Shown in pieces: positions 5,982-23,106 of a stretch of DNA of 64,000 nucleotides (positions are counted from its first letter, which is position 1; each line of letters starts with the position of its first letter). Where the stretch lies: contig NZ_JASTLB010000001.1 in assembly GCF_030499535.1 (NCBI RefSeq), forward strand, positions 2,232,001-2,296,000, written 5' to 3'. Made by a program: the position numbers and the translations under genes. The notes below the pieces were generated by a model that was not told where the DNA came from, did no database searches, and saw only the letters and a list, made by a program, of their open reading frames with translations. This DNA comes from Streptomyces sp. TG1A-8. GTDB lineage: Bacteria > Actinomycetota > Actinomycetes > Streptomycetales > Streptomycetaceae.

Positions 5982-8900
5982 TCAAGTGGGTGGGACGGGA
6001 GTCTCAGCATGTGAACGAAGGGCTGTACCGCCACCGAAGACGGCGGACACGCCTGCGGTGTACACCCCGGATCCGCCCCCACCGGCGAAGACCGGCTCGG
6101 CCGGTGCGTGCGGCACCGGATAATGGCCGGATCCGAGCGCCCGGCGCAGCCGGTACTCCTCCAGCGGCCCGGAGAACGCCATGCCCTGGGCGTGCGTGCA
6201 GCCCATCGCGCGCAGCGCCATCACCTGTTCCGGCAGGTCCACGCCCTCGGCCACGGACTGGAGCCCCAGGTCGCCGGCGATGCGCAGCAGCCCGCTCGTG
6301 ATCTTGTGCAGCGGAGCGGACTCCACGACCCCCTCGACCAGGGTGCGGTCGAGCTTGAGGATGTCCACGGGCAGCTTCCTCAGGGCCGTGATGGTCGCGT
6401 AGCCGCTGCCGAAGCCGTCCAGCGCGATCCGCACCCCGAGCCGGCTGAGCGCGGCCAGCCGCCGCTCCAGTTCCTCCAGACAAACCCGGGGGTCGAGGTC
6501 GCACAGTTCGACCACCAGCGCGCCGGGCGGCAGGCCGTGCCGGTTCAGCAGCGCCTCCACCGAGCCGAGCGGCACCGAGCGGTCCAGCAGCCGCCGGGCG
6601 CTCGTCCGGACGGTCACCGGGACGACGAGTCCGGCGGCGGCCCGCTCCGAGGCCCGCTCGACGGCCTCCTGGAGGATCCAGCGGTCCAGTTCGGCGGTCT
6701 TGTCGGCGTCCTCGGCCACCCGCAGGAACTCGGCCGGGGTGAACAGCACCCCCTGGGAGGAGCGCCAGCGCGCCTGGGCGGAGACCGCCGTGACGCGGCC
6801 GTTGCGCAGGCAGACCACCGGCTGGTGCAGCAGCGTGAACTCGCCGTCGTGCAGCGCGGCCCGCAGCCGGGTGGCCAGCTCGGCCTTGCGCACGACGTCC
6901 TGCTGCATCTGCGGCCGGTACAGCACCACGCGGCCCTTGCCGGCCGACTTGGCGCGGTACATGGCGAGGTCGGCGTTGCGCAGCAGCTCGCCCGCGCCGA
7001 GGCCCGGTTCGGCGAAGGCCACGCCGATGGAGGCGTTGACCCGGACATCGTTGCCGTCGATGGCGTACGGCTGCGAGAGGGTCGTCCTGAGACGGTCGGC
7101 GAGCTCCACGATGTCGCGCTCCCGGGCGGCCCGGTCGTGGGTGCCGTCCCCGACGATCAGGGCCGCGAACTCGTCGCCGCCCAGCCGGGAGGCGGTGTCG
7201 CCCTGGCGGACCGCGTCCTGGAGCCTGCGGGCGGCCTGGACCAGCAGTTCGTCCCCGGCCTGGTGCCCGATCGTGTCGTTGACCGCCTTGAAGCCGTCCA
7301 GGTCGATGAAGAGCACGGCCGTGCCGCGCAGGGCGGCGCCGCGGTCGGTGGCGCGGCGGCCGGACAGCGCCTGCTGGACGCGCCGGGTGAACAGCGCGCG
7401 GTTGGGCAGGTCGGTGAGCGGGTCGTGCTCGGCGTTGTGCTGCAGCTGGGCCTGCAGCCGCACCCGCTCGGTGACGTCCCGGCTGTTGAAGATGAGGCCG
7501 CCGTGGTGGCGGTTGACGGTGGACTCGACGTTGAGCCAGCCGCCACCGCCGGACCGGAAGCGGCACTCGATGCGGGTGGTGGGTTCGTCCTGGGGCCGGG
7601 CGGCGAGGAAGCGGCGCACCTCGTGCACCACGCAGCCCAGGTCCTCCGGGTGGATGAGCGCGGCCAGTTCGGTGCCCACCAGCTCCTCGGCGGGCCGTCC
7701 GTAGACCCCGGCGGCGGCCGGGGAGACGTACCGGAGGATGCCGTTGGGCGCGGCGATCATGATGACGTCGCTGGAGCCCTGCACCAGGGAGCGGAAGTGG
7801 CTCTCCTTCTGCGCCAGCTCCTGGGTGAGGGTGATGTTGTCGAGCAGCATGATGCCTTGGCGGATGACCAGCGCCAGCACGACGGCGCCCGCGGTGACCA
7901 GCACCACGTGGTCGGGCCGGCGACCGTTGAGGACGTTGTACAGGATGCCCAGGGTGCAGACGGCGGCGGCGAGGTACGGGGTGAGCGCGGCGAGGGAGCC
8001 GGTGAGCGGCCGTCCCGCCGGGTACCGGCCGTGCTCGCCCGCCGGTCCGGGCACCGGCGGGGGCACGGACACGGGCGCGGGCGGCGCGCTGCGCTGTCCC
8101 GGCACGTGCTCGTGGACCACGCGTGTGTGCCCGTCGGGGGCGCGCCGTCCGCCGTCCCGTGCTCCGGGGTGCCGGGAGGCGGCCCAGGGGGCGTAGGCGA
8201 GCAGCAGCGAGCCGCCGAACCAGCCCGCGTCCAGCAGCTGTCCGGAGTGGTAACTGCCGTGCAGCAGCGGTGAGGTGAACAGCGCGTCGCACAACACGGT
8301 CAGGGCGAGTGCGCCGATCGCGGTGTTCACCGCCGTGCGGTTGCCCGGAGCCCGTCGGAAGTGCAGGGCGAGGACCATGCTGACGAGCACGATGTCGAGC
8401 AGCGGATAGGCCAGGGAGAGCGCGGTGTGCGCCACGCTCGGCCCGTCGAAGCGGGCCGCCTGGGCGAGCGCCAGGCTCCAGGAGAGAGTGAGCAGCGAGC
8501 CGCCGATCAGCCAGGCGTCCAGTCCCAGGCAGATCCAGCCGGCTCTGGTCACCGGTCGTTTGGCGAGGACGAGCAGGCCCACGATGGCGGGCGGCGCGAA
8601 GCAGAGGAAGAACAGGTCGGCGTAGCCCGGGGTGGGCACGGGCCGCGCCAGGACCACCTCGTACCACCCCCACACGGCGTTGCCGAGGGCCGCCATCGCC
8701 GAGGAGAGGGCGAACAGCAGCCAGGCCGGCCGGAAGCGGATCCGCGGGCTGCGGCCGTAGAGGAAGCAGGAGACGGCGGCGGCGCCCGCCGCCGCGCTCA
8801 GTCCGAAGTCGCCCATGATCAGCGCGAGTGTGTCGGAGCCCCAGTTGAAGGCGGACCCGACGGCGTAGGCCGCGCAGACGAGGGCGAGGGCGAGTTGCTG

Positions 8901-9017
8901 GACCACGCGCCCGTCGCCGACGGCCGGCGGCCGGGGCGGCGCTCCCTGCGGCAGCGGCGCGCACGGCGCGCTGTCGCGTACGGCGGCCGTGGTCGTCACG
9001 GTGGTCGACGCGTTCAC
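5982..9017 (-). CDS. Membrane PAS-GGDEF-EAL protein, EAL domain degenerate
   Basis: Predicted c-di-GMP signalling protein, about 1011 aa. N-terminal region has roughly ten hydrophobic segments, then a PAS domain (about residues 400-530, with FRSLVQGSSDVIMIAA), a GGDEF domain with intact LGGDEF (613-617) and an EAL domain. Catalytic EAL motifs are altered: E-A-L position reads SAQARW, the N-x-S site is VRTS, E-I-T-E reads ELCD, and LDDFGTGY reads LDGFGSGY. I infer an active cyclase with a dead or ligand-binding EAL. Position beside ilvB matches S. coelicolor SCO5511 (possibly CdgE). GTG 9017 has GGGAGG 5 bases before it; the frame is open to 9308, so a longer N-terminus is possible. Its stop lies upstream of the ilvB leader. 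Confidence 0.85.
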   Translation of the reverse strand: MNASTTVTTTAAVRDSAPCAPLPQGAPPRPPAVGDGRVVQQLALALVCAAYAVGSAFNWGSDTLALIMGDFGLSAAAGAAAVSCFLYGRSPRIRFRPAWLLFALSSAMAALGNAVWGWYEVVLARPVPTPGYADLFFLCFAPPAIVGLLVLAKRPVTRAGWICLGLDAWLIGGSLLTLSWSLALAQAARFDGPSVAHTALSLAYPLLDIVLVSMVLALHFRRAPGNRTAVNTAIGALALTVLCDALFTSPLLHGSYHSGQLLDAGWFGGSLLLAYAPWAASRHPGARDGGRRAPDGHTRVVHEHVPGQRSAPPAPVSVPPPVPGPAGEHGRYPAGRPLTGSLAALTPYLAAAVCTLGILYNVLNGRRPDHVVLVTAGAVVLALVIRQGIMLLDNITLTQELAQKESHFRSLVQGSSDVIMIAAPNGILRYVSPAAAGVYGRPAEELVGTELAALIHPEDLGCVVHEVRRFLAARPQDEPTTRIECRFRSGGGGWLNVESTVNRHHGGLIFNSRDVTERVRLQAQLQHNAEHDPLTDLPNRALFTRRVQQALSGRRATDRGAALRGTAVLFIDLDGFKAVNDTIGHQAGDELLVQAARRLQDAVRQGDTASRLGGDEFAALIVGDGTHDRAARERDIVELADRLRTTLSQPYAIDGNDVRVNASIGVAFAEPGLGAGELLRNADLAMYRAKSAGKGRVVLYRPQMQQDVVRKAELATRLRAALHDGEFTLLHQPVVCLRNGRVTAVSAQARWRSSQGVLFTPAEFLRVAEDADKTAELDRWILQEAVERASERAAAGLVVPVTVRTSARRLLDRSVPLGSVEALLNRHGLPPGALVVELCDLDPRVCLEELERRLAALSRLGVRIALDGFGSGYATITALRKLPVDILKLDRTLVEGVVESAPLHKITSGLLRIAGDLGLQSVAEGVDLPEQVMALRAMGCTHAQGMAFSGPLEEYRLRRALGSGHYPVPHAPAEPVFAGGGGSGVYTAGVSAVFGGGTALRSHAETPVPPT

Positions 9018-17880: not shown

Positions 17881-18375
17881 TCAGCCTCGGCGTCCGTCCC
17901 AGGTCCCGCTCCTCAGGAAGTGGTTGTCGTACCGCTCCTGGACCTCCAGCAGGCTCTCGGGGGTGAGTTCGCCGAGACGGACGCGCTGGAGGTGGCGGAA
18001 GTAGTCGAAGCGCTCGACACCCGGGGCGATGACGATCAGGAGGTCGGCGGTGCCGCCGGGAGGGGCGGCGAAGGCGTGCGGGCGGCCGGGCGGGACGACG
18101 ACCAGGTCGCCGCGGCGGGCGGTGACGACGACGTCGCCGGACAGCAGTTCCGCCTCGCCGTCGAGCAGGAAGAACATCTCGGCGGAGTTGCGGTGCAGGT
18201 GGGGACGGGCGCCGTCGGCGCCCTCGGTGAGGGTGACGCGCACGGTGGACAGGGCGCCCCCGCTGGCGCTGCTGTCGGCGAGCAGCTTGACGGCGACGGG
18301 CGCCCGGCCGACCACCTCGGCCTGCGCGTCGCGGACCAGCACGGTTTCCTCGAACGTCGGCACGAACAGGGACAT
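17881..18375 (-). CDS. Cupin-domain protein
   Basis: 164-aa small beta-barrel protein. Cupin motif 1 is seen as [21 protein letters not shown] (two His and one Glu as likely metal ligands) and motif 2 as [19 protein letters not shown] with the third histidine. This fits a mononuclear metal-binding cupin, but substrate and reaction are not evident. The C-terminal [26 protein letters not shown] may be a helical extension. AGGAGG sits 3-4 bases before the ATG. It begins only 34 bases after the GGDEF-EAL gene (RmdB-like) and is probably co-transcribed with it. Confidence 0.8.
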
Positions 18376-18409: not shown

Positions 18410-20638
18410 TCACTCGGCGGCGGGCAGCGCGGCGCGGGGACGCTGCCAGCCGCAGGAGCTGCGCGCGCGCAGCCAGGCCGTCATCTCCTGGGGCGGCATC
18501 GCGGCGGCGACCAGCCAGCCCTGCACCGCGTCGCAGCCGAGGTCGCGCAGCCGCTCCCAGGTCTCGTCGTCCTCCACGCCCTCGGCGACGACCAGCAGGC
18601 CCAGGGAGTGCGCCAGGTCGATCGTGCAGCGCACGATCTCCGCGTCCTCGTGGTCCACGGCCAGCCGGGCCACGAACGACCGGTCGATCTTCAGCTCGCT
18701 GACCGGCAGCCGGCGCAGGTGCACCAGCGAGGAGTAGCCGGTGCCGAAGTCGTCCAGGGACATCTTCACCCCGTGCCCGGTGAGCGCGGCGAGGGCGTCG
18801 GCGGCCCGCTGCGGGTCCTCCAGCAGGACGTGTTCGGTGATCTCCAGCTGGAGCGCGCCGGCCGGGACACCGTGCCGGGCCAGCCGGGCGGCGACCGATC
18901 CGGCGAACCCGGGGGTGTGGACGTCGCGCGGGGAGACGTTGACGGCCACCGGCACCCGCAGTCCCTGCGCCCGCCAGCGGGCGACCTGTCCGAGCGCGGT
19001 CTCCAGGACGTACTCCGTCAGGTGGGGCATCAGCCCCGAGGACTCGGCGATCGCGATGAACTCGTCCGGCGGCACCTTCCCGCGCTCGGGGTGGACCCAG
19101 CGCACCAGCGCCTCCAGCCCGGCGACCTGTCCGTCGAAGCGGACCTTGGGCTGGTAGTGCAGCTGCACCTCGTGCGCGTCCAGGGCCCGGCGCAGGTCGC
19201 CCAGCAGGCCCAGCCGGTCGGGGGTGTTGGAGTCCCGCTTGGACTCGTAGACCTCGACGCCGGTGCGGTCCCGCTTCGCCTGGTACATCGCCACGTCGGC
19301 CCGCCGCAGCAGGCCCTCGGCGTCCAGGGCGTGGTCGGGGAAGACGGCGACGCCCGCGCTGGCCTCCAGCACGAGGGTGAGTCCGTCGAGGTCGAGCGGG
19401 GGGCCGAGGGCGGCGACCAGGCCGCGGGCGATGCGGGTCGCCGACGTGGTGGAGTCGGCGACGGGCAATAAGACGGCGAATTCGTCGCCACCGAGCCGGG
19501 CGGCCTCCGCTGCGGGCGGCAGGGCGAGTCGGAGCCGGTCGGCGATCTGCAGCAGCAGCCGGTCGCCGGCGAGGTGGCCGAGCGTGTCGTTCACCGACCG
19601 GAACCGGTCGAGGTCGATCAGCACGAGGGCGGTGCGGGCGTCGATGCGGTCGGCGTCGTCCAGGGCCGTCCAGATCCGCTCCAGCAGCCACTGCCGGTTG
19701 GGCAGCCCGGTGAGCGGGTCGCGCAACTGCTCCTCGGCGCGGGCCCGGGCCATCCACAGGGTGGAGTCGAGGGCGATCAGCGGGATCGCGAAGAGCGGGA
19801 GCAGCAGGGGTTCGGCGTCGGCGACCACGCACACCAGCGGGGCGATGCCGAGCGTCGCGACGGCGACCAGGCCCTGTCTGACCAGGGCGGCGCGGGCGAC
19901 GGCGGCCAGGGCCTCGCCGCGCGGGGCGTGCAGGTACCACAGCAGGCCGCGGGCGACCGTGAGGTAGACGGCGGCCGCGAGCACCACCTCGGGCACGGTG
20001 GCGGGGCTCCAGCCGGCGGGCCGCCAGGGCGCCTCGACGCTCGGTACGCGGCCGAAGGCGCCGAGCACCAGGGCGCCGGCGCCGATGCCCAGGATCTCCA
20101 CGGCGCCGTGCAGCACGCCCTGCCGCCGGCGGTGCCGCCTGGCCGTGCCGACCAGGACGACGACGGTGAGGCTGACCATGCCGGCGGGCATCCAGCCGTA
20201 CAGCAGCAGGACGGCGAGGGTGAGGGCGGCGCCGGAGCCGGTGCCGCCCCACCAGCGGGCGCGGCCGAGCATGACGAGGTGGCCGACGATGACGCCGGTG
20301 AGCAGGGCCAGCGACCAGCCGACCGCGCCGCCCGGGAAGAGGGCGTGGTGTCCGGTGAAGGCGCGGTGGAACCCGGCGCCGAGGACGCAGGCCGCGGCGG
20401 CCACGGCGGCCAGGGACAGCGGGGGCAGGGGCAGGCGCCGGCCGGGGGCGGCGCCGGGCGGGGTGAGGGCCTGCGCGAGGGGGGCGTGCGCCTCGGCCGC
20501 GGTGCCCGGTGCGGTGGGGCGGGTCCGGCCGTCCGGGCGTTCGCCGCGCCGGCCCGGCCACCGGTGCCCACGCCACGCGCCCGTGCGGCGGCTCAGGCGC
20601 AGCCGTACGTGCGGGGCGGCGCTCTCGCTCGGTTCCAT
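18410..20638 (-). CDS. rmdB: Membrane GGDEF-EAL protein (RmdB-like c-di-GMP phosphodiesterase/cyclase)
   Basis: 742-aa c-di-GMP protein. About eight membrane segments occupy the first ~270 residues; then GGDEF (383-387, LGGDEFAVLL) and a complete EAL domain: LEALVRW, AVNVSP, LEITE, LDDFGTGYSS, ELKIDRSF and VAEGVED are all intact, so phosphodiesterase activity is expected. Position next to ligA matches S. coelicolor SCO5495 (RmdB), from which I take the name. ATG 20638 has GAGAGG 7 bases upstream; the frame is open to 20863 but that stretch looks non-coding. Codon 390 (19469-19471) is TTA, the rare leucine codon read by bldA tRNA, three codons behind GGDEF. Lies just upstream of the cupin gene. 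Confidence 0.9.
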   Translation of the reverse strand: MEPSESAAPHVRLRLSRRTGAWRGHRWPGRRGERPDGRTRPTAPGTAAEAHAPLAQALTPPGAAPGRRLPLPPLSLAAVAAAACVLGAGFHRAFTGHHALFPGGAVGWSLALLTGVIVGHLVMLGRARWWGGTGSGAALTLAVLLLYGWMPAGMVSLTVVVLVGTARRHRRRQGVLHGAVEILGIGAGALVLGAFGRVPSVEAPWRPAGWSPATVPEVVLAAAVYLTVARGLLWYLHAPRGEALAAVARAALVRQGLVAVATLGIAPLVCVVADAEPLLLPLFAIPLIALDSTLWMARARAEEQLRDPLTGLPNRQWLLERIWTALDDADRIDARTALVLIDLDRFRSVNDTLGHLAGDRLLLQIADRLRLALPPAAEAARLGGDEFAVLLPVADSTTSATRIARGLVAALGPPLDLDGLTLVLEASAGVAVFPDHALDAEGLLRRADVAMYQAKRDRTGVEVYESKRDSNTPDRLGLLGDLRRALDAHEVQLHYQPKVRFDGQVAGLEALVRWVHPERGKVPPDEFIAIAESSGLMPHLTEYVLETALGQVARWRAQGLRVPVAVNVSPRDVHTPGFAGSVAARLARHGVPAGALQLEITEHVLLEDPQRAADALAALTGHGVKMSLDDFGTGYSSLVHLRRLPVSELKIDRSFVARLAVDHEDAEIVRCTIDLAHSLGLLVVAEGVEDDETWERLRDLGCDAVQGWLVAAAMPPQEMTAWLRARSSCGWQRPRAALPAAE

Positions 20639-20847
20639 TCCCGTCCCTCTCACAGCCGGCGGTGCCCACGCCACGCGGCCCGTTGCCCGGCAACCGTCTG
20701 CGGCTCCGCGTCGAAAGACCCTTCCCCGCGCCCCGCGGGCACGGGGATGCCCCGACCGCGGCCGGGCACGGCAGGTGCACGTTCCCACAGTAGGCCGCGC
20801 GGGGCGGCCCCGGACAACGGTCGCCGACGGTTGCCCGAATGCGTACG

Positions 20848-20887
20848 GGCCACCCGTATGCATCTGATATGCGCCGAACGGGTGGCC
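20848..20887 (-). terminator. Hairpin after ligA
   Basis: GGCCACCCGT (20848-20857) and ACGGGTGGCC (20878-20887) form a perfect 10-bp stem with a 20-base, A+T-richer loop, 9 bases after the ligA stop on the minus strand. The rest of 20639-20847 should contain the rmdB-like gene promoter; I see no clear boxes. Confidence 0.55.
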
Positions 20888-20895
20888 TTCAACCG

Positions 20896-23106
<2,211 letters not shown>

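Follow-up and report, generated by a model that had tools for sequence, protein, structure and literature searches.

The leucine codon TTA is very rare and is read efficiently in Streptomyces only late in growth. In Streptomyces ghanaensis, the c-di-GMP gene rmdB (ssfg_02196) is reported to contain a single TTA ahead of its EAL domain, and its product shows phosphodiesterase activity in vitro and affects c-di-GMP, sporulation and antibiotic output (PMC7026642, 2020). According to the same report, activity of an RmdB-GusA fusion was absent over the first 24 h with the TTA version and low from 18 h on with the CTG version; mutation of bldA nearly abolished the former and left the latter unaffected (PMC7026642). 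Deletion of rmdB is described as delaying development in Streptomyces venezuelae (PMC6205966). In Streptomyces coelicolor, rmdB is SCO5495 (PMC7911125; PMC6205966), and RmdB is listed with a 6TM-GGDEF-EAL order (PMC7911125, Table 1). SCO5495 was placed among the genes that often have TTA, which 7 of the 14 Streptomyces orthologues and also that of Kitasatospora setae contained (PMC4255298, 2013). A later survey, using the criterion that a TTA be kept in at least 50% of species, gave a TTA at nucleotides 1171-1173 (codon 391) of an S. coelicolor diguanylate phosphodiesterase gene as 1 of 11 conserved TTA codons (PMC10327506, 2023). From annotation and position, we infer that FQ762_RS28405 is SCO5495, and the codon 391 of that survey is very probably codon 390 of rmdB as numbered here, shifted by one residue.

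The locus analyzed here lies in a stretch of 64,000 nucleotides from Streptomyces sp. TG1A-8 (contig NZ_JASTLB010000001.1, positions 2,232,001 to 2,296,000), hereafter the window. A gene at 18410..20638 on the minus strand encodes a protein of 742 amino acids with membrane segments, a GGDEF domain and an EAL domain (Pfam, 6.4e-39 and 3.5e-72, respectively); its start at 20638 was chosen, the longest ORF beginning at 20863. A crude hydropathy profile gave eight partly overlapping hydrophobic segments between residues 69 and 288, and the product has the GGDEF-then-EAL order with intact motifs, namely, GGDEF at residues 383-387 (19478..19492, minus strand), EAL at residues 509-511 in the phosphodiesterase domain (19106..19114, minus strand), and DDFGTG at residue 629. 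Directly upstream lies ligA, identified by Pfam as an NAD-dependent DNA ligase gene (20896..23091, minus strand). We take SCO5494 to be ligA in S. coelicolor. A scan of genome contigs gave 567 relatives, the best 80 of which, rmdB orthologues, show 76-87% best-segment identity and have ligA at 78 of the 80 loci. On the downstream side, a gene for a cupin-domain protein (17881..18375, minus strand, Pfam), which is a neighbor only, was seen at 17 of these 80 loci, some of which end early. By its domain order, the adjoining ligA and its sequence, the window gene is thus an rmdB (SCO5495) orthologue, as the sequence-only reading had proposed in calling it RmdB-like. The window ligA has no TTA, and none was found among 5274 leucine codons of 78 ligA orthologues from the loci of the best 80 of 567; another rare leucine codon, TTG, is present at ligA codon 448 in 65 of the 77 orthologues from these loci that have leucine there.

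Read on the minus strand, the frame of rmdB at the GGDEF motif is GGT GGC GAC GAA TTC GCC GTC TTA TTG CCC, with the TTA at 19471..19469. This is codon 390 of 742 when the ATG at 20638 is taken as the start, or codon 465 in the longest ORF (18410-20863); it is the third codon past GGDEF and lies inside the GGDEF domain, upstream of EAL. Direct reading of the strand, together with the orthologue alignment, excluded an error of frame or coordinate, and the position and strand given by the sequence-only reading were correct. TTA390 is also the sole TTA of an open frame of 871 codons around rmdB. A gene finder based on codon usage predicted 55 genes, which together occupy 88% of the window and whose 1914 leucine codons were distributed as CTG 1319, CTC 577, TTG 10, CTT 6, CTA 1, and TTA 1; no TTA was found in ORFs outside this set having a third-position GC above 0.75 and a positive coding score. 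The earlier statement that this TTA is the only one among the real genes of the window therefore holds for the 55-gene set (1/1914). Its description of unusually A+T-rich surroundings stands at a scale of about 20 bases, as the most A+T-rich 21-base stretch at TTA390 is equaled or exceeded by 0.9% of the 21-base stretches of the window, but not at 60 bases (13% of the window) nor over the surrounding 200 bases, which are 76% GC. An A+T-rich island as a separate feature was consequently rejected, the 20 bases being accounted for by the codons GAA-TTC and TTA-TTG. The GAATTC on the window arises from the GAA-TTC codons of the GGDEF motif, and among 81 sequences, namely that of the window and the best 80 of 567, 2 have GAA at that codon, the window's being one of them.

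Across the best 80 of 567 orthologues, codon 390 is TTA in 43, CTG in 29, and CTC in 8, and these 80 rmdB genes contain 50 TTA codons in total, 43 of them at codon 390. In a set of 246 Streptomyces genomes drawn evenly, which includes that of the window, the word GGDEF-x-x-TTA matched 87, occurring once per genome and always with A-V as the intervening residues, while the reversed control pattern was present in none of the 246. All 50 of the 87 matches that were fetched corresponded to rmdB codon 390. Among 297 genomes of the family, split by hand count from the listing into 153 of the same genus and 144 others, GGDEF-A-V-TTA occurred in 59 and 2, respectively; the latter two (G253 and G267) are both sampled genomes of one genus outside Streptomyces (g9), and the remaining 142 non-Streptomyces genomes had none. 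The state of codon 390 changes 9 times on a ligA tree of 79 rows drawn from the best 80 of 567, compared to 26.4 times with shuffled labels, and 10 times on an rmdB tree of 81 rows (80 being the best of 567). Parsimony on a tree of 186 rmdB sequences gave four gains and ten losses of TTA390, this tree being rooted at its midpoint and several of the gain and loss branches being weakly supported. On the ligA tree, a record titled Kitasatospora aureofaciens NRRL B-2183 (L048) clusters with Streptomyces tendae (L031), for which reason its name or culture may be wrong.

The sequence-only reading had asked whether TTA is kept at this position in orthologues and whether the protein is made without bldA. 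The codon is indeed kept in 43 of the best 80 of 567, but 37 have CTG or CTC instead, and 159 of the 246 genomes lack it; that 37 of 80 near orthologues lack it shows that control by bldA is not universal and does not refute the idea. As to the protein, the outcome in S. ghanaensis favors the idea, the TTA version being nearly lost there without bldA (PMC7026642). The proposed link between bldA and a c-di-GMP enzyme is likewise supported by the TTA-to-CTG swap and the bldA deletion reported there (PMC7026642). Because that experiment shows bldA-dependent RmdB, the central idea of a bldA-type TTA in rmdB is correct but already published.

Among 94 columns of rmdB and ligA with A/T-ending rare codons, TTA390 was the most stable on the tree, at 0.25 changes per minority row (9 changes, 43 of 79 rows) versus a median of 0.74; ordered by how many A-ending codons a column holds, it comes 5th of 1015 conserved columns. 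ATA528 follows closely in clade stability (11 changes, 38 of 79 rows, 0.29 per minority row), and the very rare codons AGA254, ATA528, and ATA600 of rmdB are each kept in about half of 81 sequences (80 being the best of 567). Since these other rare codons are kept nearly as well, persistence by itself is weak evidence of selection and was dropped as proof of it after this control. The two substitutions required from TTA to CTG also slow change, and persistence argues for selection only in part.

The distribution of TTA elsewhere in rmdB was examined in a wider sample. After locating ligA in the 246 genomes, we fetched 120 stretches, comprising 70 beside ligA in genomes without a TTA match (of 159 such genomes, chosen among the matches listed by E-value, apparent second ligases and contig ends being omitted) and 50 at TTA matches (of 87 such genomes, chosen for having TTA). 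An rmdB gene was found in 115 of the 120, the exceptions being L133, L144, L145, L151, and L189, the last of which is shortened by its contig. Removal of 9 near-duplicates from 195 sequences left 186, a non-random set made up of the 80 nearest orthologues (best of 567), the 50 selected for TTA, and the 70 others picked by hand. In the 65 rmdB genes found beside ligA, codon 390 is CTG in 58, CTC in 6, and TTG in 1, and 17 of the 65 have TTA elsewhere, compared to none of the 50 with TTA390. In the pooled set, TTA elsewhere occurs in 22 of 97 genes without TTA390 versus 0 of 89 with it (Fisher p 1.9e-7, kinship ignored); exactly one TTA is present in 110 of the 186 genes, two in 1, and none in 75, and intermediates at codon 390 are rare, with one TTG among the 97. 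Should the 65 be representative, roughly half of the genus would have one or more TTA codons in rmdB (35% with TTA390, together with 17/65 of the rest).

On the tree of 186 sequences, other TTA codons were gained 16 times at 14 positions, ranging from codon 74 to 361 in orthologues without TTA390, and every gain fell on a branch without TTA390 at either end. Of the tree length, 37% belongs to branches that start and end with TTA390, and these received 0 of the 16 gains (binomial p 0.0006, gains assumed proportional to length). All 16 gains lie upstream of codon 390, where 56% of leucine codons sit (p 0.0001); measured against the start of the EAL domain at codon 481, upstream of which lie 70% of leucine codons, p is 0.004. 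CTA, also an A-ending leucine codon, was split evenly in the 186 genes, with 10 occurrences upstream and as many downstream. The upstream position of TTA is not necessarily peculiar to rmdB, since a bias of TTA toward gene starts is reported to be general in streptomycetes (PMC4255298). In predicted flanking genes of the 80 loci (best 80 of 567; 575 genes), none of 17785 leucine codons was TTA, including 7877 from genomes without TTA390. The rmdB genes without TTA390 have 23 TTA in 10085 leucine codons (p 7e-11 versus flanking genes, kinship ignored), and the rate in rmdB is therefore far above the local one. Alignable codons averaged 675 without TTA390 and 730 with it, so that this bias runs against the finding of excess TTA.

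The genome also encodes the tRNA required to read the codon. A tRNA-Leu(UAA) gene with the anticodon TAA, that is, bldA, is located at G000:C1:4292713-4292796; it was the one such tRNA among 14 whose anticodons were read in 15 fetched stretches (L120 gave none), out of 70 tRNA matches in the genome. Starting nine bases past the end of this gene is a near-palindrome, TCACCGCGAGTGA (L127:206-218; G000:C1:4292805-4292817), which differs at one base from a BldD consensus. BldD is reported to bind inside or near bldA in S. coelicolor (PMC7026642, PMC4255298). Upstream of rmdB, no site with at most one mismatch to this consensus was found in 20638-20900. Direct control of rmdB by BldD was accordingly set aside, in agreement with a gel shift of rmdB with BldD reported as negative in S. 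ghanaensis (PMC7026642). The genome contains seven GGDEF matches, rmdB included. Five of the other six genes show no TTA in the open frame read, which speaks against TTA as a general trait of GGDEF genes; the frames of L081 and L082 ran past the fetched stretch, about 66 codons of L081 being unseen and L082 being complete and TTA-free according to the gene finder. L082 is the second GGDEF gene of the window (5982-9017, minus strand), and its place near rmdB suggests a CdgC orthologue. The sixth, L087 (G000:C4:123981-124334), is a small GGDEF gene on contig C4 with a third-position GC of 0.83 and a TTA at open-frame codon 91, and is perhaps plasmid-borne.

Taken with the S. ghanaensis experiments, these observations make it highly probable that the single TTA in the membrane c-di-GMP phosphodiesterase gene rmdB renders translation of the EAL half dependent on bldA and acts as a developmental switch; bldA-dependent synthesis of RmdB in TG1A-8 itself would follow by analogy with S. 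ghanaensis. In young hyphae, where the UUA-reading tRNA would be scarce, translation would break down at codon 390, within the GGDEF domain, presumably through stalling or loss of the product. No phosphodiesterase would then be made, c-di-GMP would stay high, and BldD would remain an active repressor of development. Once mature bldA tRNA appears, full-length RmdB could be produced, c-di-GMP would fall, and BldD would be released. The bldA promoter is reported to be 5-fold weaker without bldD in S. ghanaensis, and for S. coelicolor bldA is said to be targeted by BldD (PMC7026642); as the reports on the two species differ, the loop between bldA and BldD may not be of a single sign.

A developmental switch has to be weighed against the possibility that TTA390 is a neutral relic, an ancestral codon kept by descent since a return to CTG or CTC takes two substitutions, and without any effect that matters. 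Codon 390 does behave as a clade marker on the ligA tree, intermediates are rare, and other rare codons, ATA528 above all, persist similarly, codon 390 being only 5th of the 1015 columns. Against this, codon 390 is the most stable of the 94 rare-codon columns, other TTA codons are absent from the genes that carry TTA390 (0/89 versus 22/97), the 575 predicted flanking genes at the loci of the best 80 of 567 have no TTA in 17785 leucine codons, and a translation effect was measured in S. ghanaensis (PMC7026642); we regard this explanation as unlikely. The codon could alternatively serve mainly to slow the ribosome past the membrane part, within the GGDEF domain, and so aid insertion or folding with no developmental switch. 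Its place in the GGDEF domain behind the membrane part would suit such a role, as would the retention of AGA254, ATA528, and ATA600 in about half of the orthologues. However, the other TTA codons, at 14 places between codons 74 and 361, do not line up with any single domain boundary, CTA shows no upstream bias, and the product nearly vanishes without bldA in S. ghanaensis (PMC7026642), which together leave ribosome slowing a very improbable main function.

How the codon is maintained is a more evenly balanced matter. Judging from the sequences, selection may keep one TTA ahead of EAL with its site free, such that a TTA arises upstream where TTA390 is lacking and a second TTA is not tolerated, and we give this an even chance. 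In that case, control of c-di-GMP breakdown by bldA would be a conserved regulatory function exerted through a codon that moves, much as transcription-factor sites turn over. The competing account, which bears only on this moving codon and which we hold to be possible but doubtful, is that the excess of TTA elsewhere is a by-product of looser codon usage in the lineages without TTA390 and not of selection. In its favor, the lineages differ, and an independent-pairs test controlling fully for descent had no power, with one or two informative pairs of 13; CTT, GTA, AGG, and AAA are commoner upstream of codon 390 in the group without TTA390; and a single loss of TTA390 in the main TTA clade was accompanied by another TTA (L148 and L149, codon 361, on a weakly supported branch), the remaining nine inferred losses having no replacement. 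On the other hand, third-position GC is slightly higher without TTA390 (0.947 versus 0.941), ATA, AGA, TCA, and TTG are rarer upstream in that group, and the flanking genes of its members among the best 80 of 567 have no TTA in 7877 leucine codons. The exclusive, upstream and moving TTA is an apparently new, if modest, pattern; a full-text literature search, mostly of papers outside subscription and so not proof of novelty, found no description of a moving TTA in rmdB.

TTA390 joins two developmental switches, as synthesis of the enzyme degrading c-di-GMP requires the bldA tRNA, and BldD with bound c-di-GMP reportedly influences bldA in turn. Comparison across species makes it possible to ask if a rare codon is retained for a regulatory role; should the codon shift its position in a gene that remains bldA-dependent, control by a rare codon would become traceable and testable like a binding site. 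The prediction is that species without TTA in rmdB make RmdB early and species with one TTA make it late.

The closest described system is rmdB of S. ghanaensis which, like the window gene, encodes a GGDEF-EAL phosphodiesterase with a single TTA ahead of EAL. It belongs to another species, in which the effect of bldA was measured, whereas for TG1A-8 this effect is extrapolated; the step from bldA to RmdB is reported for that one species, where the wider loop was also proposed (PMC7026642). The surveys that include SCO5495 likewise found TTA in rmdB across species, but in the text available they count presence or one fixed position, not turnover or mutual exclusion (PMC4255298, PMC10327506), and the level of at least 50% of species (PMC10327506) contrasts with the 35% (87/246) and 39% (59/153 of the same genus) obtained here. 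The gene adpA also encodes a developmental regulator that depends on bldA via one conserved TTA between domains (PMC4255298). While the adpA codon is reported in all streptomycetes analyzed (PMC4255298), that of rmdB is present in about half of them and at varying positions.
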